A stretch of DNA of 64,000 bases from Pigmentiphaga kullae (GTDB lineage: Bacteria > Pseudomonadota > Gammaproteobacteria > Burkholderiales > Burkholderiaceae_B): contig NZ_SGXC01000002.1 of NCBI RefSeq assembly GCF_004216695.1, positions 496,001 through 560,000 of the forward strand. Direction: 5' to 3'. The position numbers were made by a program, and so were the translations under genes. Every line of letters begins with the position of its first letter. The stretch's first letter is position 1. Below, one piece after another: positions 48,426 through 60,216 of the stretch. The notes beneath the pieces are model-generated. The model had not been told where the DNA came from. It did no database searches and saw only the letters and a program-made list of their open reading frames with translations.

Positions 48426-50054
48426 GTGCACGACCGCATCCTGATTCTCGACTTCGGCTCGCAAGTCACCCAACTCATCGCCCGCCGCGTGCGCGAAGCG
48501 CAGGTCTACTGCGAAATCCATCCCTACGACGTGTCGGACGACTTCGTCCGCGGCGAACTCGCCAAGGGCCTGAAGGGCGTCATCCTGTCCGGCAGCCACG
48601 CCTCGGCCTACGACGAAGCCTCCATGCGCGCCCCCCAGGCCGTGTTCGAATCCGGCGTGCCCGTGCTCGGCATCTGCTACGGCATGCAGACCATGGCCAT
48701 GCAACTGGGCGGCAAGGTCAGCTTCAGCGATCACCGCGAATTCGGCTACGCCGAAGTCCGCGCCCATGGCCATACCCCCTTCCTGAACGGCATCCAGGAC
48801 TTCGCCACCCCCGAAGGCCACGGCATGCTCAAGGTCTGGATGAGCCACGGCGACAAGGTCACCGAACTGCCCCCCGGCTTCAAGCTCATGGCCTCCACCG
48901 CCTCGTGTCCCATCGCCGGCATGGCCGACGTCGACCGCGGCTACTACGCCGTCCAGTTCCACCCCGAAGTCACCCACACCGTCCAGGGCCAGGCCCTGCT
49001 GGCGCGCTTCGTGCACGACATCTGCGGCTGCGGCGACGACTGGAACATGCCCGACTACGTCAGCGAAGCCGTCGAGGCCATCCGCAAACAGGTCGGCAGC
49101 GATGAGGTGATCCTGGGCCTGTCCGGCGGCGTCGATTCTTCCGTTGCCGCCGCCCTGATCCACAAGGCCATCGGCGACCAGCTCACCTGCGTGTTCGTCG
49201 ACCACGGCCTGCTGCGCCTGAACGAAGGCGAACAGGTCATGAAGACCTTCGCCGAGAACATGGGCCTGAAGATCATCCACGTCGATGCCACGGATGACTT
49301 CATGGGCAAGCTGGCCGGCGAAACGGATCCCGAGGCCAAGCGCAAGATCATCGGCAAGGAATTCGTCGAAGTCTTCCAGCGCGAGTCCGGCAAGCTCAAG
49401 AGCGCGAAGTGGCTGGCGCAGGGGACCATCTACCCCGACGTGATCGAATCGGCCGGCGCCAAGACCGGCAAGGCCGTCACCATCAAGTCGCACCACAACG
49501 TGGGTGGCCTGCCCGATACCTTGCACCTGAAGCTGCTCGAGCCGCTGCGCGAACTGTTCAAGGACGAAGTGCGCAAGCTGGGTATCGCGCTGGGCCTGCC
49601 GCATGGCATGGTCTACCGGCACCCGTTCCCTGGCCCCGGCTTGGGCGTGAGGATCCTGGGCGAGGTGAAGAAGGAATACGCCGACCTGCTGCGCCGCGCG
49701 GATGCGATCTTCATCGAAGAACTGCGGGGCACGCGGGCGACCGAACAGGATGCCGCCGCGGGCCTGTGCGCGGCGGAAGAGGTCGGGAAGAACTGGTACG
49801 ACCTGACCAGCCAGGCGTTTGCCGTGTTCCTGCCCGTGAAGTCCGTGGGCGTGATGGGGGACGGGCGGACGTACGACTACGTCGTCGCGCTACGCGCGGT
49901 GCAGACCACCGACTTCATGACGGCGCATTGGGCGCATTTGCCTTATGCGTTGTTGGGGAGGACTTCGAACCGGATTATCAACGAGGTTCGGGGGTTGAAT
50001 CGGGTGGTTTATGACGTGTCGGGGAAGCCGCCGGCGACGATTGAGTGGGAGTGA
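48426..50054 (+). CDS. guaA: GMP synthase (glutamine-hydrolysing)
   Basis: The 542-residue enzyme converts XMP to GMP. The N-terminal class I amidotransferase has [11 protein letters not shown] with the catalytic Cys. The PP-loop ATPase motif is [15 protein letters not shown], and the C-terminal dimer domain ends PPATIEWE. It begins with GTG. Its final codons (GAG TGG GAG TGA) are the apparent integration site of the downstream islands, and the C-terminus is intact. Confidence 0.97.
50042..50054 (+). repeat. att-like direct repeat, copy 1 (guaA 3' end)
   Basis: TGAGTGGGAGTGA forms the last coding bases and stop of guaA. The same 13 bases recur at 52720 and (12 of 13) at 60204, always the same way round. 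The 3' end of guaA is a known target of some tyrosine integrases. This is the inferred attL of island 1. Confidence 0.75.
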
Positions 50055-50123
50055 GGGTGTTTTATAAGTTATTGATTTAAATGTTAAAATTTAATTTCAA
50101 TAACTATGTCTTCCACATCATCA

Positions 50124-50141
50124 ATGGTTTTTTTCATGGTA
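50124..50141 (+). repeat. integrase arm-like repeat, copy 1
   Basis: ATGGTTTTTTTCATGGTA lies 82 bp right of the att core. It resembles the 18-bp repeats at 52641 and 60125 (consensus ATGGTWTTTTTCRTGGYA). It is followed by a GGTAC/GTACC dyad, another feature seen at recombination sites. Confidence 0.5.
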
Positions 50142-50253
50142 CGTGTAGGGTGTACCAAGGGAAAAACGCCGATACCATGCATTGGGGCACAATCCCAACA
50201 TGGTATCGAGACCCGCCTTAGCATTGGCTTCGTTTTTCACGGCGCGCGATGGT

Positions 50254-51324
50254 TCAATCCATCACTTCTTGCTGTGTCCATTTCGTTCGAACGTCTTGCG
50301 CCACGTTATCCATGGTGGGCATGAGTGCAGATCGGGAAATATTCTCACGGCGAAGAATCTCTATTAAGTCGGCTAAATGCTCGTGTGCCAATCTAAGCTT
50401 CCTAAGTACCGTGATGGCCGGGTTGGCCTCAGAAACAAACTCCGCAATGCCAGGTCGTTTACCACCTGATTTCATAAAATAAATGCCAGACCTGCTAATG
50501 GTCGTGAACAGCCCAGCCTGAGCAGCTAAGAACGGGTTGTCGCGAGTAGATGGCCTGACGACTGCGATGGTGGGATCAAATCGTGGGGCGCCATTTGGTG
50601 CATTGGGGAAGCTGACTCCTTCGACAGAAACTCTCTGTGCATGGCTCTTGTGCAATGCCCAAACGACCAGATGTGCTCCAGCGTTTGCAACCCGCAATGG
50701 CTCAACGGCAAAGAATGCGGCGGCCATCGGATCTCGTGTCCAGTCAAGAAGACGCGTAGGTATCCCATGATGCTGTGCGAGAGCCAAGGCAGCCGGCAAA
50801 TCTGAGAAGCGCAAGAATTCGTCGCCAAATATCGGATTGTGAGGATCCGCCAACCAATCTGGATTGGTAGTTGGATCCGGTCCGAGATTTGTCATCGGTA
50901 CCGGCATTCCCAGTTCATCACACCTGCTGATGAAGTCCCACACTGGCAAATACTCGGCAGTGGTTTGGATTGTTAGGAACCTACTAAGCTCGGCATCGCG
51001 TGGGCCAAATGCAGCGGAACCGGACCAGTAGTTGGGATGCCAAAACCAGTTGAGATTTTGCGTCGGCTGCACAGCGTCAAAGCGGCGCGTCGCTTCAGTA
51101 ATACTGTTGTTCAAGATGGTATTCGACGGGCGCCAAGCCGAAGGTAATAACTGCCATTCCTCGTATGCGTGGCCCCGAAAAACCCACGGGCAAGATGCAC
51201 CTTCCCACCAATGGGAATTGGATGGACGAAGAGCGTCAATAAATTCCTGAGCCGTTGCTGCCACCGCTACTTCGATGCCTCCAGAGGCATTTGTCCAATC
51301 AATAGCCAACTCAATTCTCTCCAA
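50254..51324 (-). CDS. FRG-domain protein
   Basis: The 356-residue protein has the FRG hallmark in two blocks: PWVFRGHAYEEWQLLPSAWR, and LAQHHGIPTRLLDWTRDPMA followed by AAFFA. The domain is named for its Phe-Arg-Gly and is common in defence islands and toxin-like proteins; its chemistry is not settled. A later NPFLAAQAGLFTTI segment is also typical. It has no signal peptide or membrane segment. It lies downstream of the PIN/antitoxin pair on the same strand with a 63-bp gap. Confidence 0.8.
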   Translation of the reverse strand: MERIELAIDWTNASGGIEVAVAATAQEFIDALRPSNSHWWEGASCPWVFRGHAYEEWQLLPSAWRPSNTILNNSITEATRRFDAVQPTQNLNWFWHPNYWSGSAAFGPRDAELSRFLTIQTTAEYLPVWDFISRCDELGMPVPMTNLGPDPTTNPDWLADPHNPIFGDEFLRFSDLPAALALAQHHGIPTRLLDWTRDPMAAAFFAVEPLRVANAGAHLVVWALHKSHAQRVSVEGVSFPNAPNGAPRFDPTIAVVRPSTRDNPFLAAQAGLFTTISRSGIYFMKSGGKRPGIAEFVSEANPAITVLRKLRLAHEHLADLIEILRRENISRSALMPTMDNVAQDVRTKWTQQEVMD

Positions 51325-51387
51325 TTTGGCAGGTTTCCCATTCTTCGGCTACGGCAGGCGCCTGATGGGCCGCGTTGAGCTGCGATG

Positions 51388-51963
51388 TTAGAGAATGGAA
51401 CAATAGGTCGCTAAGGCTTTGGTCGTCTGAACCAGTCCTTGCCGAAATAGGATCTCCAGATAGCGATCGACGTCGATAGGCGGATTCTTGAGTTGCGCCC
51501 GCTGTCGCTGCGCGGCGGCTACCACCGCTGCTGCATCAAGGTCAAAGAGATTCTCCACAAACTCGTCGGGATGTTGAGATTCAACTCCGTAGGAAGCGAG
51601 CACGTCCGCTGGAAAATCCAGTTGATTGAAGGTCACGATCACGTTGGCACCGCAGCGGATGGCCGTAGCGAGAACATGGCGATCGTCGGGGTCGGGCAGA
51701 GTCAACCCTGCAATGAGATCTTCATACCCATCTACCAAACCATCGGGGATTGCGCGATCCATCAGGTCTGAAGTGCGATCCACCTGTACACGTGTCAGAT
51801 CAGGCCTGTTGAGTAGCAAATTGCGTTTCCACTCCTCATGAATGTCGCGACTCCAGCGAGCACGGAACCGTCCCGACAACCCTAGCCACATCAGAAAGTC
51901 GCGCAGCGGCGCGGGATAGAGAACACAGGCATCGAAGATGACAGTGAAGGGGGAGTGCCTCAT
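51388..51963 (-). CDS. PIN-domain ribonuclease toxin
   Basis: The 191-residue PIN_3-type protein has the N-terminal acid in VIFDACVLYPAPLRDFLMWL (Asp11) and the C-terminal acidic block LPDPDDRHVLATAI followed by TFNQLDFP. Such proteins cut RNA with a metal ion. The start overlaps the upstream antitoxin stop by four bases, the usual toxin-antitoxin order of antitoxin first. Confidence 0.85.
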   Translation of the reverse strand: MRHSPFTVIFDACVLYPAPLRDFLMWLGLSGRFRARWSRDIHEEWKRNLLLNRPDLTRVQVDRTSDLMDRAIPDGLVDGYEDLIAGLTLPDPDDRHVLATAIRCGANVIVTFNQLDFPADVLASYGVESQHPDEFVENLFDLDAAAVVAAAQRQRAQLKNPPIDVDRYLEILFRQGLVQTTKALATYCSIL

Positions 51964-52403
51964 TCGTACCCCATGCCTGATTCCTGAGCTTGGCGGGCGA
52001 GTTCGGCCATGGCTTCTTCGCTAGCACGATCGCGTGCATCCTTGTACTGCATCAGGTCCGCGAACCGCACTCGGCGATGCTTCCCCGTTCGATGGAACGG
52101 CAGCACGCCATCCTCCAGCAGCTTGACCAGATGAGGGCGGGAGACGTTGAGCATGTCCGCAGCTTCCTGGGTCGTCAGCTCCGTATGGACGGGTACGACT
52201 CTTACGGCATTGCCACCAGCCAACTCGGCCAGGATATCGACCAGCAAACGCAGCGCGGAGGTAGGCAACTCCACCTGATGGGCCTGGTTCCGGTCATCGA
52301 AGATCTGGATGTGTTGTGTTTCGAAGCGCGTTGCCAAGTAGGCCGCCAAGGCGCGTTGACCTTGCACGGCTGCCTGGACCTCCCGTTCGGCGGGCAGCGT
52401 CAT
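51960..52403 (-). CDS. excisionase-type HTH antitoxin
   Basis: The 147-residue protein has a MerR/excisionase-like DNA-binding segment (LTTQEAADMLNVSRPHLVKL, then PFHRTGKHRRVRFADLMQYK) in the C-terminal half. The arrangement with a PIN toxin is a known toxin-antitoxin type. It probably represses its own promoter through direct repeats upstream (52475-52501). Confidence 0.82.
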   Translation of the reverse strand: MTLPAEREVQAAVQGQRALAAYLATRFETQHIQIFDDRNQAHQVELPTSALRLLVDILAELAGGNAVRVVPVHTELTTQEAADMLNVSRPHLVKLLEDGVLPFHRTGKHRRVRFADLMQYKDARDRASEEAMAELARQAQESGMGYE

Positions 52404-52474
52404 CTTGGTTGGGGCAGTGGTGGTTATGGCTAGTTCCTGGGCTGTGAAGCAATCTCAAAGTCTAGCATATTCGA

Positions 52475-52501
52475 AATAAACGAAAAACGCAATAAACGAA
52501 A
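52475..52501 (-). promoter_or_regulatory. direct repeats upstream of the PIN antitoxin
   Basis: AATAAACGAAA occurs twice, at 52475-52485 and 52491-52501, 16 bp apart, about 70-95 bp before the antitoxin start. They flank the likely promoter region and are good candidates for the antitoxin operator. The rest of 52404-52640 shows nothing else. Confidence 0.5.
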
Positions 52502-52640
52502 GAGGGATGGGAGATGACGAGGGCCGGATCTCTGTTGTCCTGCTGCGTGGAGCAAGTTCTTTTGACTCAATGACGTCTGAAGAAGATAAATCGACACCGC
52601 TGCGCGTTTGCGTCACTGATGAGCGAGCCGGTGGTTCGCC

Positions 52641-52658
52641 ATGGTATTTTTCGTGGCA
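52641..52658 (+). repeat. integrase arm-like repeat, copy 2
   Basis: ATGGTATTTTTCGTGGCA lies 80 bp left of the GAGTGG core of att copy 2. The same repeat sits at exactly the same distance from att copy 3, and the stretch between aligns without gaps. Confidence 0.65.
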
Positions 52659-52719
52659 TTGGCGGATCTGTCTGTTTCAATACTCTGATTTAAAACAGCT
52701 TTTTCTTCCTATTGATAAC

Positions 52720-52732
52720 TGAGTGGGAGTGA
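52720..52732 (+). repeat. att-like direct repeat, copy 2
   Basis: TGAGTGGGAGTGA is identical to the guaA end over 13 bases. It lies in non-coding DNA at the junction of the two islands. The following bases (GTCTGGCATCGACTGGCAC) resemble those after copy 3. Confidence 0.75.
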
Positions 52733-52851
52733 TTCCACGTCTGGCATCGACTGGCACTGAGCGGGCTTTTTTTGTAACTTCGTTCGGCACCATCAGGCAA
52801 TCTTTGGCATCGCCAAGCACCGCCAGAAATGGCGATGCTGGCCAGCTCGTT

Positions 52852-53046
52852 CTATGCTGGCGTGTCCAGCCCTTCCTTGGCGTCCAACAACGGCCAGAGA
52901 AACAACCTGCTCAGGCTGTGCGTATCGTTTAGCAAGGCGGCAAGCGGCCTGCCCATCGCCTCATCAGCCAACCACCAGCGCAGCAGCTCGCCGGTCTCGT
53001 CGCGGGCTTCCAGTCGCCCACCCTCAAACATCCAGATAGCAGTCAT
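52852..53046 (-). CDS. small hypothetical protein in island 2
   Basis: A 64-residue frame starting MTAIWMFEGGRLEARDE has GAGG nine bases upstream. The composition looks protein-like (LLRWWLADEAMGRPLAALL), but I do not recognise the family. It lies downstream of two antitoxin-like remnants on the same strand and may be part of the same worn module. Confidence 0.35.
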   Translation of the reverse strand: MTAIWMFEGGRLEARDETGELLRWWLADEAMGRPLAALLNDTHSLSRLFLWPLLDAKEGLDTPA

Positions 53047-53093
53047 CGTGCTTGCCTCATTTCCGGGGAAAAGTCCCGAGGGAAACGGTACCG

Positions 53094-53252
53094 TCACGAC
53101 GCGATGCTGTGCATGGTTCGCGCACGTGCTGCGACTTCGCGGACGTGTTCGATATAGGCGGGGTCGGCCGTCGCCTCGGCGTCGGCCAGGAATGTGGCTA
53201 CGGCTTCAGCAGTGGTCAGGTCTTCGGCCGGGTCAAAGGGCGTAAGGGGTTC
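53094..53252 (-). pseudogene. fragment of an HTH addiction-module antidote (HigA/HI1420-like)
   Basis: A frame without any start codon reads PFDPAEDLTTAEAVATFLAD and DPAYIEHVREVAARARTM, a good match to the N-terminal half of the antidote family. It stops just where the helix-turn-helix should begin. It starts right at the stop codon of the next upstream frame, so a frameshift or deletion fused and cut two modules. Confidence 0.45.
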
Positions 53253-53431
53253 TAGGCCCGCATCGACGCGGCGGCCAGCTCGACAGCTTGGGCGACGTCA
53301 GTCAGCCGGGCGCGCACTTGGTCTGCATTAACGGCGCGGCCTGCGGCGGCCTTCAACGCATCGTAGGCAGGGCCGATTTGTTCATGCAGCCAACGCGCCA
53401 TGTCCACTTTCCCTGTTTCCTCTTTGCCCAT
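53252..53431 (-). CDS. small antitoxin-like protein (C-terminal RHH-antitoxin motif)
   Basis: A 59-residue frame contains WLHEQIGPAYDALKAAAGRA and VNADQVRARL, resembling the C-terminal toxin-binding tail of ParD-like antitoxins. The DNA-binding half seems missing, and no toxin gene follows, so it is probably a remnant. It has GTAAGG before its ATG. The gap 53432-53722 to the operon holds no gene I can recognise. Confidence 0.4.
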   Translation of the reverse strand: MGKEETGKVDMARWLHEQIGPAYDALKAAAGRAVNADQVRARLTDVAQAVELAAASMRA

Positions 53432-53722
53432 CGCACACCTTACGCTGATATTGCTCAGCCCGCCTCATCCAGATGAGGCCACAGGCTACTACGTTGCCTG
53501 CTTTCCCTGGGAAGAGAGACGCGACCACCTTCTTGGCGTAACCATCTGCGTAAAGCAGGCCTTGCAATCGAACTGGTGCCGCGAGCCTGCCGCAACGCGT
53601 GGCACCGGCCGAATCTATGGCTTCGCGCACATGAGATTCGGGGTTCATTCGAGGGGGTCAGATGGTAAACTTGGCCAAACTTTGGAAGACTTCGCCGCGC
53701 GACACCAAGCGGGCCGCCTGAA

Positions 53723-53923
53723 ATGAACCAACCCGATAGCGAAATTCTCACGCTGGATGAAGTGGCAGTCTACCTCAAGGCAGGGAAGAAGACCGTGTAC
53801 CGGCTAGCCCAGCAGGGGGAGATACCGGGATTCAAGCTGGGCGGCACCTGGCGGTTTCGTCGCAGCGAGTTGGATCGCTGGATTGCCGCGCAGATAGCCG
53901 AGAAAACGCAGGACAAGACATGA
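53723..53923 (+). CDS. excisionase-family HTH DNA-binding protein
   Basis: The 66-residue winged-helix protein ILTLDEVAVYLKAGKKTVYR, then GEIPGFKLGGTWRFRRSELD, has an intact HTH_17 fold. It is the first gene of the defence-like operon and is linked to the methyltransferase through a 21-codon overlapping frame. It is probably the operon's regulator, playing the role of a restriction-modification C-protein, rather than an excisionase, since no integrase is present. Confidence 0.8.
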   Translation: MNQPDSEILTLDEVAVYLKAGKKTVYRLAQQGEIPGFKLGGTWRFRRSELDRWIAAQIAEKTQDKT

Positions 53924-53985
53924 GCGCTCCGCAAAACGATAGCAACTTGGCGGCCACGCCCCTAAGGGGGGCTGCACGCCCATGA
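53920..53985 (+). CDS. 21-residue linking reading frame
   Basis: The frame starts in ATGA overlap with the HTH stop and ends in ATGA overlap with the methyltransferase start (MSAPQNDSNLAATPLRGAARP). It has no visible domain. The double overlap suggests that it carries ribosomes from the regulator to the methyltransferase gene, so translation is coupled across the gap. Confidence 0.45.
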   Translation: MSAPQNDSNLAATPLRGAARP

Positions 53986-56750
53986 ATGCCGTAGAAATCG
54001 AACAAGCCGTCACCGACCTCGCGGAGCAGCCCTTTGACCCCGCAGAGTTCCCCTACGCCTTCCTGGAAGCCTTTGGCAACAAGGCGACGACCATCAAGCG
54101 CCTGCGCGCGGGGGCGTCGAACAAGTCCGATCTCGGTGGTGTTCTCCAGACTAGCAACATCCACATTTTGACCTGCGACACTGGGCGGGTGACGCAGACG
54201 CTGGCCGCTCTTAAGGCCAGCCCGGCTACGGCCAAGGCCAAGGCGAAGTTCATCCTCGCCACGGACGGGGCGGACTTTGAGGCCGAAGACCTGACCAGCG
54301 GCGAGACCGTCGCCTGTGCCTTCAGGGATTTTCCCGACCATTTCGGCTTCTTCCTGCCGCTGGCGGGCATCAGCACTGTCCGCCAGATCAGTGAGAACGC
54401 CTTCGACATCCGGGCCACCAGCCGCCTGAACCGTCTGTATGTCGAACTGCTGAAGGACAACCCGGAATGGGGCACGGCGGAGCATCGCCACGACATGAAC
54501 AAGCTCATGGCGCGGCTGATCTTCTGCTTCTTCGCCGAGGACACCGATATCTTTGGCGGCAGGGGCAAGTTCACCGAGACCGTCGCGCGGATGAGTGCGG
54601 GGGATTCGACCAATACGCACGAGGTCGTCGCCACGCTGTTCCGCACCATGAACACCAAGCGTGAGGATCGGGCGGCCGCTGGGCTGCCTCGGTGGGCCAA
54701 TATCGACGATTTCCCCTATGTCAACGGGCAGTTGTTCTCAGGCGGCGACGAAGTCCCGCGATTCAGCAAGATTGCACGGTCCTATCTGCTTCACGTCGGT
54801 GGGCTGGACTGGACCAAAATCAACCCGGACATCTTCGGGTCGATGATCCAGGCCGTCGCTGAGGACGAGGAGCGTGGCGAGCTGGGGATGCACTACACCA
54901 GTGTTCCCAACATCCTGAAGGTGCTGAACCCGCTGTTTCTCGACGACCTGCGTGCAAAGCTGGAAGAAGCGGGCGACAACCCGCGCACCTTGCTCAACCT
55001 GCGCAAGCGCATCGCCCGCATTCGCGTGTTCGATCCGGCCTGCGGTTCGGGCAACTTCCTGGTCATCGCCTACAAGGAAATGCGCGCGATCGAGGCTGAG
55101 ATCAATAAGCGGCGCGGTGAGCCAGATCGCGCATCTGGTATCCCGTTGACGAACTTCCGCGGGATCGAACTGCGAGATTTTCCGGCGGAGATAGCGCGGC
55201 TCTCGTTGGTCATCGCCGAATATCAGTGCGACGTGCTGTATCGCGGCCAGAAGCTGGCCCTTGCCGAGTTCCTGCCCTTGCGGAACGAGAACTGGATCAC
55301 TTGCGGCAATGCGCTCTGGCTCGATTGGTTAAACGTGTGTCCATCAATTGGGACCGGCGTGAAACTGCAATCGAGAGACTTCTTTGAGACGCCGCTCGAT
55401 CAGGCCGAAATCGATTTCGAGAACGAGGGCGGCGAGATCTACATCTGTGGTAACCCGCCGTACAAAGGAAGCCAAGATCAAACCGACCAGCAGAAGTCAG
55501 ACTTGGCCCATGTTTTTGCAGGGGAGAATATCAACTCTGGAGTAGCTGACTACGTTTTGGGGTGGTTTGCTAAGGCGGCAAATTTTGTTCGCAGGTATCG
55601 CGCTAAGTTTGCTTTTGTAGCAACCAATAGCATTCACCAAGGTAGGCAAGTCGCCAGAATTTGGCCTGCGCTACTCGGTAACGATTTGAGAATTTTTTTC
55701 GCAGAGCCGTCGTTCAAGTGGTCGAACTTGGCCTCGAAGAAAGCCGTAGTTACGGTATCCATCATTGGGATTTCTTCATTACCCGAGAAATGCCGAGTAA
55801 TCTCAGACGGATTAGCCAGGGACGTGGATCAAATTGGACCTTACATGGTCCCTGGCCCGACGGTCTTCGTCGACGAGCGACGCACAGCTTTGTCCGATGT
55901 GTCACCCATGTCGTTCGGCAGCATGCCCAATGACGGCGGGGCTCTGCTGATGAACTATAGCGAATACAAGGAACTTATCACTGACCGCAGGACACTGCCG
56001 TTCGTTCGATCCGCAGCAGGCACGCGAGAATTCATCAATGGTGTCCCGAGATACTGCGTTTGGGTGAGTGACGATCAGTACGAGAAGGCAAATGAGATCC
56101 CTGCGCTCGCATTTCGCTTTAACCGCGTGAGAACAGCACGGGAGCAAAGCAAGAGACCAGCAACGAACTCACTAAGTCGATTTCCGTATCGCTTTGGAGA
56201 GATTCGCCAGACCGGTGACGAGTCGGTCATCATCGTTTCAAAAACAGCTTCCGAAAACCGCGATTACATTCCCGCATCGTTGCTAGAGCGAGGTGGTATC
56301 GTCACTGAGGCGTTTGGGCTCTTCAATGCACCGCTTTGGAACTTGGCGATTGTCGTGTCCCGCCTTCACACAGTCTGGGCCAAGACGGTGTGCGGCAGGA
56401 TGAAGAGTGACCCCCGGTACTCAAATACCCTTGGTTGGAACACCTTCCCGGTTCCAGCGCTGACAGAAAAAAATAGGACGGACCTTACGCGCTGCGCCGA
56501 GGATATTCTGCTGGCGCGGGAGCATCATTTTCCAGCTACTATAGCCGACCTTTACGACCCCGACGCAATGCCCGCCGACCTGCGCGCCGCGCATGAGCGC
56601 AATGACGAAGTGCTGGAACGCATCTACATCGGCCGCCGCTTCAAGAACGACACCGAGCGGCTGGAAAGGCTGTTCGATCTTTATACCAAGATGACCGCTT
56701 TGGCTGCACCGGCCAAGGGCAAGAAACGCAGAGCGGGAGCCAACGCATGA
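53982..56750 (+). CDS. MmeI-like N6-adenine DNA methyltransferase lacking the nuclease motif
   Basis: The 922-residue protein has the architecture of MmeI-type enzymes. An N-terminal domain is followed by a helical linker, the methyltransferase core with FDPACGSGNFL (SAM motif I, residues 350-360) and NPPY (motif IV, residues 491-494), then a target-recognition region and a C-terminal helical part. Where nuclease-active relatives have an E-x-K, this protein reads NIHILTCDTGRV, so it should modify but not cut. The recognition region (about 55480-56500) is much more AT-rich than its flanks. It overlaps the helicase by four bases. Confidence 0.85.
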   Translation: MNAVEIEQAVTDLAEQPFDPAEFPYAFLEAFGNKATTIKRLRAGASNKSDLGGVLQTSNIHILTCDTGRVTQTLAALKASPATAKAKAKFILATDGADFEAEDLTSGETVACAFRDFPDHFGFFLPLAGISTVRQISENAFDIRATSRLNRLYVELLKDNPEWGTAEHRHDMNKLMARLIFCFFAEDTDIFGGRGKFTETVARMSAGDSTNTHEVVATLFRTMNTKREDRAAAGLPRWANIDDFPYVNGQLFSGGDEVPRFSKIARSYLLHVGGLDWTKINPDIFGSMIQAVAEDEERGELGMHYTSVPNILKVLNPLFLDDLRAKLEEAGDNPRTLLNLRKRIARIRVFDPACGSGNFLVIAYKEMRAIEAEINKRRGEPDRASGIPLTNFRGIELRDFPAEIARLSLVIAEYQCDVLYRGQKLALAEFLPLRNENWITCGNALWLDWLNVCPSIGTGVKLQSRDFFETPLDQAEIDFENEGGEIYICGNPPYKGSQDQTDQQKSDLAHVFAGENINSGVADYVLGWFAKAANFVRRYRAKFAFVATNSIHQGRQVARIWPALLGNDLRIFFAEPSFKWSNLASKKAVVTVSIIGISSLPEKCRVISDGLARDVDQIGPYMVPGPTVFVDERRTALSDVSPMSFGSMPNDGGALLMNYSEYKELITDRRTLPFVRSAAGTREFINGVPRYCVWVSDDQYEKANEIPALAFRFNRVRTAREQSKRPATNSLSRFPYRFGEIRQTGDESVIIVSKTASENRDYIPASLLERGGIVTEAFGLFNAPLWNLAIVVSRLHTVWAKTVCGRMKSDPRYSNTLGWNTFPVPALTEKNRTDLTRCAEDILLAREHHFPATIADLYDPDAMPADLRAAHERNDEVLERIYIGRRFKNDTERLERLFDLYTKMTALAAPAKGKKRRAGANA

Positions 56751-58801
56751 GCGACAAGATCAAGTCCGTACCGTCCGTCTCCGTCTCCTATGCGCGTAAC
56801 GGTGTATCGACCAAAGCCAATTCCCTCGGGATGCGGCCCATGCAGGAACGCGCTTACGAGAAGCGAGGTGAGCAATATCTGCTTATCAAGTCGCCACCAG
56901 CATCGGGGAAGAGTCGGGCACTGATGTTCGTGGCACTCGACAAGCTCAAGAATCAGGGCCTCAAGCAGGCCATCATCGTCGTGCCCGAGAAGTCCATCGG
57001 AGCCAGCTTCAACGACGAGCCGCTGTCGAAGTACGGCTTCTGGGCTGATTGGCGCGTCGAGCCAAAGTGGAACTTGTGCAATGCGCCAGGCAACGACAAT
57101 GGCGGTAAGGTCAAGTCCCTCGGCGTGTTCCTCGAAGGCGACGACAAGGTGCTGGTCTGCACCCACGCCACTTTCCGCTTTGCGATCGATGCCTATGGCG
57201 TCGAGGCGTTCGACGACCGTCTGATCGCCGTCGATGAGTTTCATCACGTTTCGGCCAACCCCGATAATAAACTGGGCACACACCTAGGCCAGTTCATCGC
57301 ACGGGGCAAGACTCACATCGTCGCAATGACCGGCTCCTACTTCCGGGGCGACGCTGAGGCCGTCCTCGCTCCGCAAGACGAGTCGAAGTTCGATACCGTT
57401 ACGTACACCTACTACGAACAGCTCAACGGCTACGAGTATCTTAAGCAACTCGACATCGGCTACTTCTTCTACAGCGGCCCCTACGTCGATGACATCCTCA
57501 ATGTCCTTGACCCTGCCGAGAAGACCATTATCCACATCCCCAACGTCAATTCGCGCGAGAGCACGAAGGACAAGATGCGCGAGGTGGAGCACATCATCGA
57601 GGCGCTGGGGGAGTGGCAGGGCATCGATGCCGCCACAGGGTTCCAACTCGTCAAGCGCCCGGATGGCCGCGTATTGCGCATCGCTGATCTGGTCGATGAC
57701 GATGCCTCAAAGCGTGACCGGGTGTCCGCCGCGCTTAAAGACCCGGTGCAGAAGAACAACCGCGACCATGTGGACATCATCATCGCGCTGGGTATGGCGA
57801 AGGAAGGCTTCGACTGGATTTGGTGCGAACACGCGCTGACCGTGGGCTACCGTGCCAGCTTGACCGAAATCGTTCAGATCATTGGTCGTGCCACCCGCGA
57901 TGCACCTGGAAAGATTCGCGCGAGGTTCACCAATCTGATCGCCGAGCCGGATGCGACCGAGGAAGCGGTCACAGAGGCCATCAACGATACGTTGAAGGCC
58001 ATCGCGGCGAGTCTGCTGATGGAGCAGGTTCTCGCTCCGCGTTTCGAGTTCAAGCCCAAGAATCCCGACAGCGGCCCGACGCCAGGCTTTACCTATGGCG
58101 AGGGTGGCTATGACCCAGACCGCTGCAACATCGGCGTCAATGAGCAGACAGGGGCGTACCAGATCGAGATCAAGGGCCTCGCCGAACCCAAGAGCAAAGA
58201 GGCAGCGCGCATCTGCCAAGAAGACTTGAACGAGGTCATCGCTGCGTTTGTACAGGACAAGCCCACCATCGAGCGCGGCCTGTTCGATGAGGAGCTGGTG
58301 CCCGAGGAGCTGACGCAGGTTCGCATGGGCAAGATCATCAAGGACAAGTATCCCGAGCTTGACGCTGAAGATCAGGAGGCCGTGCGCCAGCACGCCATCG
58401 CCGCCCTCAACCTCACGCAGCAGGCCAAGCGGCTTGTCACCGACGGCGAGAGAGAGGGGGGGGGCAACACCGCCCTGATCGACGGTGTGCGCCGCTTTGC
58501 AATGGACGTGCGCGAGCTGGACATCGATCTCATCGACCGTATCAACCCCTTCGGCGAAGCCTACGCCATCCTTGCCAAGACCATGAGCGAGGACAGCTTG
58601 AAGCAGGTCGCGGTGGCCATCTCAGCCAAGCGCACCTCGATCACGCCTGAAGATGCCAAAGTGATTGCCAAGCGTGCGGTGGAGTTCAAACGCGAGCGTG
58701 GGCGGGCGCCATCGGTGACCTCCCTGGACGCCTGGGAAAAGCACCTTGCCGAAGGTGCGGCCGCCTTCATGCGCTTCAGGGCGGAGGGGCGCTATGAGTA
58801 A
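56747..58801 (+). CDS. SF2 DEAD/DEAH-like helicase of the defence-like operon
   Basis: The 684-residue protein has all core helicase motifs: RPMQERAYE (Q-like), Walker A SPPASGKS (residues 49-56), DEFH box (163-166), MTGSYF (motif III) and QIIGRATR (motif VI, 377-384). It resembles the ATP-driven translocases of type I/III restriction systems. A G9 tract near codon 570-573 sits inside the frame. The C-terminus has a KRERGRAPSVTSLDAWEKHL motif that recurs in the next protein. It is coupled to both neighbours by overlaps. Confidence 0.85.
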   Translation: MSDKIKSVPSVSVSYARNGVSTKANSLGMRPMQERAYEKRGEQYLLIKSPPASGKSRALMFVALDKLKNQGLKQAIIVVPEKSIGASFNDEPLSKYGFWADWRVEPKWNLCNAPGNDNGGKVKSLGVFLEGDDKVLVCTHATFRFAIDAYGVEAFDDRLIAVDEFHHVSANPDNKLGTHLGQFIARGKTHIVAMTGSYFRGDAEAVLAPQDESKFDTVTYTYYEQLNGYEYLKQLDIGYFFYSGPYVDDILNVLDPAEKTIIHIPNVNSRESTKDKMREVEHIIEALGEWQGIDAATGFQLVKRPDGRVLRIADLVDDDASKRDRVSAALKDPVQKNNRDHVDIIIALGMAKEGFDWIWCEHALTVGYRASLTEIVQIIGRATRDAPGKIRARFTNLIAEPDATEEAVTEAINDTLKAIAASLLMEQVLAPRFEFKPKNPDSGPTPGFTYGEGGYDPDRCNIGVNEQTGAYQIEIKGLAEPKSKEAARICQEDLNEVIAAFVQDKPTIERGLFDEELVPEELTQVRMGKIIKDKYPELDAEDQEAVRQHAIAALNLTQQAKRLVTDGEREGGGNTALIDGVRRFAMDVRELDIDLIDRINPFGEAYAILAKTMSEDSLKQVAVAISAKRTSITPEDAKVIAKRAVEFKRERGRAPSVTSLDAWEKHLAEGAAAFMRFRAEGRYE
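58456..58464 (+). repeat. G9 homopolymer inside the helicase gene
   Basis: Nine consecutive G encode Glu-Gly-Gly-Gly after an AGAGAGAG run. Gain or loss of one G would shift the frame for the last 110 codons. Such tracts drive phase variation in Bordetella and other bacteria. In this copy the frame is open. Confidence 0.85.
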
Positions 58802-59984
58802 CTCCGATCTTGACGACCTGGCGGCGGAGCTTGCCGAGTTCGCTCCGCCTGAGAAGAAAAATGGACGTCCAGCCAGCGAGGAGCGTGTCATCGCTGGCTT
58901 CGAGGAAATCCAACGCTTCGTAGAGCAGCACGGGCGTGCGCCGCAGCATGGCGAAGACCGCGACATATTCGAGCGCCTATATGCCGTGCGGCTCGACCGT
59001 CTACGCGCGCTCCCGGATTGCCGCGCCTTGCTTGAGCAGCTAGACCAGCAGGGCTTGCTTGCTGGGGCGCCGACCATCACCGCTTCGGCGGACGCAACTA
59101 TCGACATCGATGGCCTGGCCGCCGAGCTGGCTGACATTCCCCATGCGGACGACATCACGGTCCTGCGCCATGTCCGCACCAGCGTCGAAAAGCGCGCTGC
59201 TGAGGAGATTGAGCATCGCGAAAAATGCGACGACTTTGATCGCTATGAACACCTGTTCAAGGCGATAAAGCAGGACCTCAAGAGTGGTGTTCGCAACACC
59301 AGGAGCTTTCTGAGCCAGGCAAAGGCAATGGAAGCTATCCAGCAGGGGGCCTACTACATCCTCAATGGGCAGATCGCGTATATCGCCGAGGTTGGCGAGG
59401 ACTTCACCACGCAATACGATCGACGTGACAGTCGACTGCGGGTGATCTTCGACAACGGAACCGAAAGCAAGATACTCTTGCGGTCGTTCCAGCGCGCGCT
59501 CCATCGTGATGAGGCCGCGCGCGTTATCAGCGACCCGGATGCGGGGCCTCTATTCAATGACAGCTTAGAAGAAGGCGACATCCAGAGCGGCACGATCTAC
59601 GTCCTGCGCTCGCTGTCGGATCACCCCTACATCGCGCAGCACCGCGACCTCATCCATAAGGTGGGTGTTACCGGCGGCAGGGTGGAGGCGCGCATCGCCA
59701 ACGCCGAACACGACTCCACCTACCTATTGGCGAAGGTCGAAGTGGTGGCGACCTACAAGCTCGCAGGCATCAACCGCACCCGGATGGAGAACCTGTTCCA
59801 TAGGCTGTTCGCGCCTGCACGGTTGAACATCACTATCAATGACCGCTTCGGCCATCCTGTGCAGCCCGAGGAGTGGTTTCTCGTTCCGCTGTTCGTCATC
59901 GACGAAGCCGTGGCGCGCATCAAGGATGGCAGCATCACCGGGTACATCTACGATCCAAGTGCAGCGAAGCTGGTGAAGGCATAG
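58794..59984 (+). CDS. GIY-YIG nuclease (T5orf172/MUG113-like)
   Basis: The 396-residue protein has an N-terminal EIQRFVEQHGRAPQHGEDRD module like the helicase C-terminus, then a middle region. The C-terminal nuclease domain reads GTIYVLRSLS, HKVGVTGGRVEARIANAEHD and PEEWFLVP, a divergent GIY-YIG core with the catalytic Arg and Glu in place. The start at 58794 overlaps the helicase stop by 8 bp, after GGAGGGG. It is the likely cutting subunit of the operon. An alternative start 16 codons up is unlikely. Confidence 0.82.
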   Translation: MSNSDLDDLAAELAEFAPPEKKNGRPASEERVIAGFEEIQRFVEQHGRAPQHGEDRDIFERLYAVRLDRLRALPDCRALLEQLDQQGLLAGAPTITASADATIDIDGLAAELADIPHADDITVLRHVRTSVEKRAAEEIEHREKCDDFDRYEHLFKAIKQDLKSGVRNTRSFLSQAKAMEAIQQGAYYILNGQIAYIAEVGEDFTTQYDRRDSRLRVIFDNGTESKILLRSFQRALHRDEAARVISDPDAGPLFNDSLEEGDIQSGTIYVLRSLSDHPYIAQHRDLIHKVGVTGGRVEARIANAEHDSTYLLAKVEVVATYKLAGINRTRMENLFHRLFAPARLNITINDRFGHPVQPEEWFLVPLFVIDEAVARIKDGSITGYIYDPSAAKLVKA

Positions 59985-60124
59985 GACAGCCCATAGGCAT
60001 GAATAGCCCTGGACGCGTGCCAGGATGAGCGCCAGGAAAGCAGTATGACGAAGCGGCATTCGCCGGCGGGCTGGCCCACACCGCAAGTCTGACGATGCCG
60101 ACTCAAGCCCTTCTTTGGTGTTGG

Positions 60125-60142
60125 ATGGTATTTTTCATGGCA
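60125..60142 (+). repeat. integrase arm-like repeat, copy 3
   Basis: ATGGTATTTTTCATGGCA lies 80 bp left of att copy 3, the same spacing as copy 2. Bases 59985-60203 contain no gene; they are the right end of island 2. Confidence 0.65.
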
Positions 60143-60203
60143 TCCACAATTTGTTTATTCTCAAATTATTGTTTTTAAACGTCTCTTTCTTGCAAATGAT
60201 AAT

Positions 60204-60216
60204 CGAGTGGGAGTGA
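60204..60216 (+). repeat. att-like direct repeat, copy 3
   Basis: CGAGTGGGAGTGA matches the guaA end in 12 of 13 bases. It marks the right border of island 2. The next bases (TCCGGCATAAACCGGTACC) contain a CCGG dyad and resemble those after copy 2. Confidence 0.75.

Follow-up and report, generated by a model that had tools for sequence, protein, structure and literature searches.

Here we describe a four-gene operon of Pigmentiphaga kullae that lies in a stretch of 64,000 nucleotides (contig NZ_SGXC01000002.1, positions 496,001 to 560,000 of the forward strand; hereafter the window, in whose numbering positions are given). According to our analysis the operon is a DnmA-YeeB-YeeC cluster of the Bacillus subtilis dnmA/yeeA-yeeB-yeeC type, a kind already described and widespread, and we consider it rather probable that it is a restriction-modification system carried as cargo by a mobile unit targeted to guaA. 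What is added here to the published kind is the modular YeeC protein and the guaA unit; no earlier description of a variable YeeC middle, or of a guaA unit with such cargo, was found in a literature from which subscription journals were mostly missing, so that this absence is weak evidence.

The assignment is made from domain families and gene order. Three features that mark the cluster are present: a MmeI-family methyltransferase that lacks the N-terminal PD-ExK motif, a superfamily 2 (SF2) helicase gene immediately 3' of it, and a T5orf172/GIY-YIG gene 3' of the helicase. It was the annotation 'YeeB' of a plasmid relative that pointed to the published cluster, and helicases of other Bacillota (L113, L126, L132, L139) are 80-82% identical to that of the window.

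The methyltransferase matches all five MmeI domains of Pfam (MmeI_Mtase 356.7, target-recognition domain, TRD, 236.8, N 125.6, helical 83.9 and C 65.5 bits), with the S-adenosylmethionine (SAM) motif DPACGSG at residue 351 and NPPY at residue 491. DPACG and NP are kept in 102 of 102 aligned methyltransferases and the last residue of motif IV is Tyr or Phe in 101 of them; no [D/E]-x-K pair is conserved in at least 70% of the same sequences over residues 1-170. The original prediction, made from the DNA letters and their translations, had seen SAM and NPPY motifs and no nuclease E-x-K, and this holds over the alignment; we infer the adenine specificity of the enzyme from its family. The helicase passes the thresholds barely (DEAD 27.9 bits with a cut-off of 26, ResIII 23.3 bits with a cut-off of 22.5), and its core motifs, predicted to be complete, are borne out as GKS, DEFHH, MTGSYF and QIIGRATRD, invariant or near-invariant columns over 33 sequences. 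YeeC matches MUG113 (49.2 bits, cut-off 22.3) and T5orf172 (43.9 bits, cut-off 20), and residues G266, Y269, K289, G291, R300 and E332 are invariant in 71 sequences, the window's included, which agrees with the GIY-YIG-type fold proposed for the last gene. The plain GIY-YIG family PF01541 gave no match to YeeC at E values up to 0.001, two other places of the genome being matched, and YeeC therefore belongs to the T5orf172/MUG113 branch. The helicase has 684 residues for the 687 positions of its family profile, YeeC 396 for 396. Searches of the YeeC middle and the helicase C-terminus against Pfam (E up to 10) and solved structures returned chance-level matches only; in PHROGs at E up to 0.001 YeeC had no match, and the operon's matches there were to general methyltransferase and helicase families only.

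The four open reading frames all lie on the plus strand in the frame list and its translations, where the last runs 58746-59984. For YeeC we prefer an ATG at 58794 over the listed TTG at 58746, which is less likely as a start; from that ATG the gene overlaps the helicase gene by 8 bp, and a 4-bp overlap joins the methyltransferase and helicase genes. The first two genes are separated by 58 bp, and the prediction that every junction is overlapping or bridged stands because a 21-aa reading frame (53920-53985) spans this gap.

The cluster has a published history. According to PMC7261158, Morgan et al. 2009 placed DnmA among MmeI homologues that have no nuclease and lie beside yeeB/yeeC, and the proposal of a Type I-like system is reported there too; in 368 neighbourhoods of dnmA homologues no families occurred more often than yeeB and yeeC, which lay one and two genes downstream (PMC9973331). 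The excerpts of PMC8432527, PMC13076061 and PMC12707154 do not mention yeeB/yeeC, the latter two mentioning DnmA only, and the main text of PMC11797060 has no yeeB. The set had been called a candidate unclassified defence system. This is right for the PADLOC and NCBIfam libraries, neither of which has a strong match for helicase or YeeC: PADLOC takes the methyltransferase alone strongly, as REase_MTase_IIG (877 bits), its best match to the helicase reaches 16.8 bits, and with E values up to 0.01 it gives nothing for YeeC. It is wrong for the literature, where the cluster is already in print (PMC7261158, PMC9973331). Widespread as the cluster is, and frequent on plasmids, the 2023 PADLOC library detects only its methyltransferase.

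Conserved co-occurrence was surveyed in 136 loci selected by the helicase only and not de-replicated, some being near-identical (20 regions of related genomes, the window's own as L044, 27 viral-contig loci, 8 plasmid regions and 80 genome contigs, the best 80 of 523 relatives). All three genes stand in order at 122 of them, 121 found by script on a single strand and L103, which lies beyond the distance rule of the script; this is beyond chance, as had been expected of a true system. Among the other 14, ten break off upstream too early for a methyltransferase to be seen, L087 ends downstream, and L042, L043 and L072 hold partial helicases. Loci that hold the cluster are named Pseudomonadota, Bacillota, Actinomycetota, Cyanobacteriota, Acidobacteria and others. 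Of 150 related genomes 16 have the helicase, and within the order it was found in 29 of 399 (the window's own counted both times); it also matches 264 of 72,556 plasmid records, 154 of them across at least 80% of its length; in phage records there were 3 matches in 50,697, partial only. With YeeC as query 224 plasmid records matched, 47 of them Klebsiella, against 13 Klebsiella records for the helicase, so YeeC-like genes may also occur outside the operon, without this helicase.

The operon is modular in two places. Windowed DNA identity to four close relatives (L024, L025, L083, L084) drops twice, over methyltransferase residues about 487-800 and again over YeeC residues about 150-265; in these troughs G+C is modestly lower (0.52-0.54 and 0.55, respectively, against 0.58-0.64 in adjoining 400-bp windows; one helicase window is likewise low, 0.56). 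The helicases of the window and L024 are 96% identical and their TRDs 42%. We compared all against all the 101 operons, the window's included, with a methyltransferase of at least 850, a helicase of at least 640 and a YeeC of at least 340 residues; such pairs share operons and are not independent. Median TRD identity is 0.42-0.43 across every helicase bin from 0.65 to 0.95, and in the 19 pairs with helicases above 0.95 it is below 0.5 in 16 and about 1.00 in 3. TRD identity correlates with helicase identity at 0.31, and the other parts of the methyltransferase do so at 0.85-0.95, as expected for a specificity domain under diversifying exchange; the TRD is largely decoupled from the rest of the operon. 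The window TRD is a type of its own (best match 0.49 among 100 aligned operons, below 60% in all 287 matching plasmid records), and its target is therefore probably different from GACGAG.

The second module is the middle of YeeC. Between the window and L024 residues 1-100 and the GIY-YIG end are each 93% identical and the middle 49-54%; over the 101 operons its correlation with helicase identity is 0.68, against 0.83-0.95 for all parts besides TRD and middle. At helicase identities of 0.90-0.95 the middle is bimodal, below 0.6 in 10 of 39 pairs and at least 0.8 in 29, and the ten low pairs come from few operons (five with the window, three with L027, two others). The window's own middle is 0.39-0.41 identical to those of its six nearest relatives, with 0.62 as the best in the set and 61.6% as the best on plasmids. 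Operons with TRDs identical at 0.85-0.91 have YeeC middles at 0.42-0.50, and operons with the same middle often carry unrelated TRDs. The middle is exchanged as a block, mostly independently of the TRD.

The mobile unit was recognised at the 3' end of guaA. This gene ends at position 50054 with the 12-mer GAGTGGGAGTGA, which recurs twice downstream (Table 1). The sibling genome G007 has a single core, and guaA is joined there directly to sequence 91% identical to the window from 60202 onward; this arrangement shows the site naturally empty of the entire 10,160-bp stretch (50055-60214) and confirms the island that had been predicted at guaA. We read the stretch as two tandem units, 50055-52730 and 52731-60214. 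Twelve cores were found outside guaA, with up to one mismatch allowed, and seven of them have ATT[T/G]TT[C/T][A/G]TGG exactly 75 nt 5' (the two of the window and, in each of G015, G002, L084, G026 and G030, one that lies downstream of the operon); four of the five cores without it are mismatched and one, in G001, is exact. Neither unit of the window has a Phage_integrase match, the genome having 10 such matches elsewhere. In two relatives, G015 and G026, the operon lies on guaA islands that have an integrase directly 3' of guaA; the 9.7-kb element of L084 (Tahibacter), where no integrase-like frame was seen and the six integrase matches of the genome lie elsewhere, looks like a second integrase-less case. 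An exact-core scan of limited flanks showed guaA-type linkage in 8 of 135 loci (L024, L025, L026, L031, L084, L086, L090, L124). The insertion class is already known: islands of the GIsul2 type have the core GAGTGGGA at the guaA 3' end, and their integrase moves an att-bounded unit that has no integrase of its own (PMC9376610, in excerpt). The window unit may have been moved in trans by an integrase of this type.

The DNA itself shows how the genes are ordered and conserved, that modules have been exchanged and where the mobile unit lies; how marking, movement and cutting may proceed we infer from the domains. In the mechanism that we propose, the TRD would let the methyltransferase recognise a short asymmetric site, at which it would methylate adenine and so mark self DNA; at an unmarked site the enzyme would load YeeB, which would move along the DNA with ATP, and YeeC would cut or nick the unmarked DNA. 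Because the methyltransferase would belong to the attack complex, in a Type I-like manner, its loss should inactivate the attack and not kill the cell. Specificity would shift through exchange of the TRD segment, and the YeeC middle may be another module open to exchange and selected in its own right, which perhaps serves to evade phage inhibitors or to sense some other feature of DNA or protein. The original reading of a methylation-linked, ATP-driven defence operon fits this anatomy and the evidence. In Vibrio crassostreae deletion of dnmA or yeeB made the cells more sensitive to some phages (second-hand, PMC9973331).

We surveyed the frames at 135 loci besides the window's, setting aside 34 at contig ends; in 94 of the 101 fully covered loci all three are open. 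The methyltransferase alone is broken in five (L041, L076, L081, L109, L128) and the helicase alone in none, which fits an attack that needs the methyltransferase; the remaining two are L078, whose YeeC of 333 aa falls just below the cut of 340, and the remnant L042. Some of the breaks may be sequencing errors.

Several points weigh against the proposed system. The excess of methyltransferase breaks (5 of 6) is weak against gene length (p=0.077). Sequence searches gave no convincing solved-structure relative for helicase or YeeC, so translocation and cutting follow from motifs only. In B. subtilis the deletions left transformation and the plating of three tested phages unchanged (PMC7261158, PMC9973331), and the DnmA site is not under-represented in phage genomes (PMC9973331); members of the cluster can thus be inactive, and its function is contested across the published species.

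For B. subtilis the authors of the published studies concluded that the cluster is a relic, in which an active orphan methyltransferase affects gene expression and the helicase and nuclease have ceased to restrict (PMC9973331, PMC7261158). For the window we hold this rather unlikely, since its three frames are open, as they are in most covered loci, the helicase motifs and GIY-type residues are invariant, and its proteins have full profile length, whereas YeeB and YeeC of B. subtilis lack C-terminal stretches found in V. crassostreae (PMC9973331). A BREX-like exclusion, in which methylation marks self and the helicase and YeeC stop phages from replicating but do not cut, would suit the weak PglX likeness of the methyltransferase and the need of type I BREX defence for DNA binding by the methyltransferase BrxX/PglX (PMC11842806, in excerpt); it is unlikely, as PglZ and BrxC were not found among the 10 proteins scanned and the GIY-type residues of YeeC are conserved. 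A type II-like scheme, with YeeC acting as a nuclease by itself and the methyltransferase purely protective, agrees with their being separate proteins of a single operon. However, the five loci named above keep helicase and nuclease open beside a broken methyltransferase (subject to the same doubt about sequencing errors), dnmA could be deleted in B. subtilis without a growth defect (PMC7261158), and an autonomous nuclease would need a matching specificity of its own, yet pairs with similar TRDs have dissimilar YeeC middles; we regard this reading as very improbable.

Least credible is the idea, our first, that the middle of YeeC is the counterpart of the TRD on the nuclease side, so that the two switch together. 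The two do form the deep troughs between near-identical operons, and concordant pairs exist (L029-L089 with TRD 0.78, middle 0.86 and helicase 0.82; L113-L126 with 0.79, 0.87 and 0.91). Covariation was nevertheless rejected: given the helicase, the partial Mantel correlation of TRD and middle is r=0.066 (p=0.072), and Spearman coefficients in helicase bins above 0.75 are 0.07, -0.07, 0.01 and 0.00, with 0.19 in the 0.65-0.75 bin, pairs with a methyltransferase domain identity of at least 0.99 being omitted; TRD and YeeC C-terminus give a weak, non-zero r=0.15 (p=0.002). Because these tests and the discordant pairs show little covariation, the modules change mostly independently, and the partner reading is largely refuted.

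Returning to the restriction-modification system, we may even suggest, tentatively, that YeeC is, rather than a plain nuclease, a modular attack subunit whose middle is a second, separately selected recognition or immunity-evasion module, and that specificity cassettes are shuffled in guaA units, sometimes integrase-less ones travelling by the integrases of resident islands. If so, there would be two largely independent locks, the TRD setting the target site and the YeeC middle something else, such as escape from phage inhibitors or a means to sense some protein of the phage or a state of the DNA. The modular pattern makes the contested function testable with natural operon pairs that differ mainly in TRD or YeeC middle.

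Table 1. Features of the operon and of its mobile unit in the window
Feature	Position	Strand	Evidence
Attachment core 1, GAGTGGGAGTGA, guaA 3' end	50043..50054	+	core scan, empty-site comparison
Attachment core 2, left boundary of operon unit	52719..52730	+	core scan
Integrase-less mobile unit, 7,484 bp, operon carrier	52731..60214	+	core spacing, sibling empty site, no Phage_integrase match
Excisionase-type helix-turn-helix (HTH) gene, MAD1-like, accessory	53723..53923	+	profile matches, locus survey
DnmA/YeeA-type MmeI-family DNA methyltransferase without nuclease motif	53982..56750	+	domain profiles, alignment
Exchanged specificity segment, about residues 487-807 (NPPY motif to TRD end)	55440..56400	+	42-60% DNA identity to four close relatives
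YeeB-type SF2 helicase/translocase	56747..58801	+	domain profiles, motif alignment
YeeC-type T5orf172/MUG113 GIY-YIG protein	58794..59984	+	domain profiles, alignment; ATG start adopted
Hypervariable, block-exchanged YeeC middle, residues 150-262	59241..59579	+	DNA identity trough, pairwise identities
Right-end motif, about 75 nt 5' of distal core, repeated 5' of core 2	60125..60143	+	motif comparison
Attachment core 3, right boundary of operon unit	60203..60214	+	core scan, empty-site comparison

The HTH gene (HTH_17 of Pfam, 68.6 bits) is an accessory, present in 8 of 136 loci with the window's own counted, and probably regulates the operon. The junction of methyltransferase and helicase is itself a recurrent slot for accessory genes, as judged from the loci: the stop-to-stop gap exceeds 500 bp in 46 of 124, and gaps of 300-5,000 bp in 55 loci hold 74 reading frames, of which 64 were scanned (not included were eight of 61-122 aa, one of 400 aa from L030, and L067 as it duplicates L066). 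Among these are 8 RhuM, 8 YhcG/DUF1016, 4 Schlafen AlbA_2, 3 PIN and 2 BrnT proteins, single AbiEii and AbiJ and others, as well as the PADLOC candidate families PDC-S02, S05 and S23; examples are seen at L026, L029, L066, L088, L101, L108, L110, L138 and other loci. In Paraburkholderia (L081:2322-6004) the methyltransferase is interrupted at an annotated IS5 transposase and helicase and nuclease are open. In Ligilactobacillus salivarius (L076:3262-5985) an internal piece of the methyltransferase lies on the opposite strand; phase variation by inversion was considered there and rejected, none of eight imperfect inverted pairs (71-88% complementary) being convincing at both ends of the piece. 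For the Pediococcus pentosaceus plasmid pP76 (L077, 7,677 bp) an incomplete gene table lists methyltransferase, helicase and GIY-YIG nuclease only.

The neighbouring integrase-less unit at guaA, 50055-52730, encodes on the minus strand an FRG-domain protein, an RSP_2648-like PIN protein (132 bits, below the NCBIfam cut-off of 170) and an excisionase-type HTH, and is probably a toxin-antitoxin or defence cassette. When compared by eye, ten sibling genomes of the genus (G001-G010, L203-L212) have different sequences over roughly the first 30 bases 3' of guaA, and the site therefore looks like an insertion hot spot.

The set had been said to match none of BREX, DISARM or classical type I systems, and the comparison agrees. 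With Type I restriction-modification (HsdRMS) the operon would share recognition by the modification part, an ATP motor and cutting after movement; unlike there, motor and nuclease are separate proteins and the TRD is fused to the methyltransferase, and HsdS and HsdR had no Pfam match among the 10 proteins scanned. For BREX neither PglZ nor BrxC appeared among proteins scanned by PADLOC (4) or by Pfam and NCBIfam (10), and the PglX similarity of the methyltransferase is far below NCBIfam cut-offs; for DISARM, DrmA and DrmB are missing from the four operon proteins, the DrmMI similarity of the methyltransferase being 96.5 bits. The methylation-associated defence system (MADS) comprises mad1 to mad8. 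Membership in it was rejected: only the HTH fits, passing the curated MAD1 cut-off (82.4 against 80), whereas the methyltransferase reaches just 28.6 bits with mad2, and none of the mad models matches the helicase or YeeC at E values up to 0.01. To MmeI (Type IIL/IIG, PDB 5hr4) the methyltransferase aligns over residues 88-921, in two stretches, with 425 bits; unlike MmeI it has no conserved nuclease-type motif in its N-terminal part, which searched alone gave no MmeI match and of which residues 1-87 lie outside the 5hr4 alignment, so that methyltransferase and PD-ExK nuclease are not combined in a single chain as in Type IIL/IIG. With GIsul2-type islands the window unit shares GAGTGGGA cores at both ends, one of them in guaA, and differs in its cargo, the putative restriction operon, and in having no integrase in the two units. 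The closest likeness in composition is to the cluster of B. subtilis and its homologues, that of V. crassostreae included: a nuclease-less MmeI-family methyltransferase, a helicase and a T5orf172/GIY-YIG protein in the same order, to which the operon of the window adds, unlike dnmA-yeeB-yeeC of B. subtilis, the upstream HTH gene and the guaA unit.

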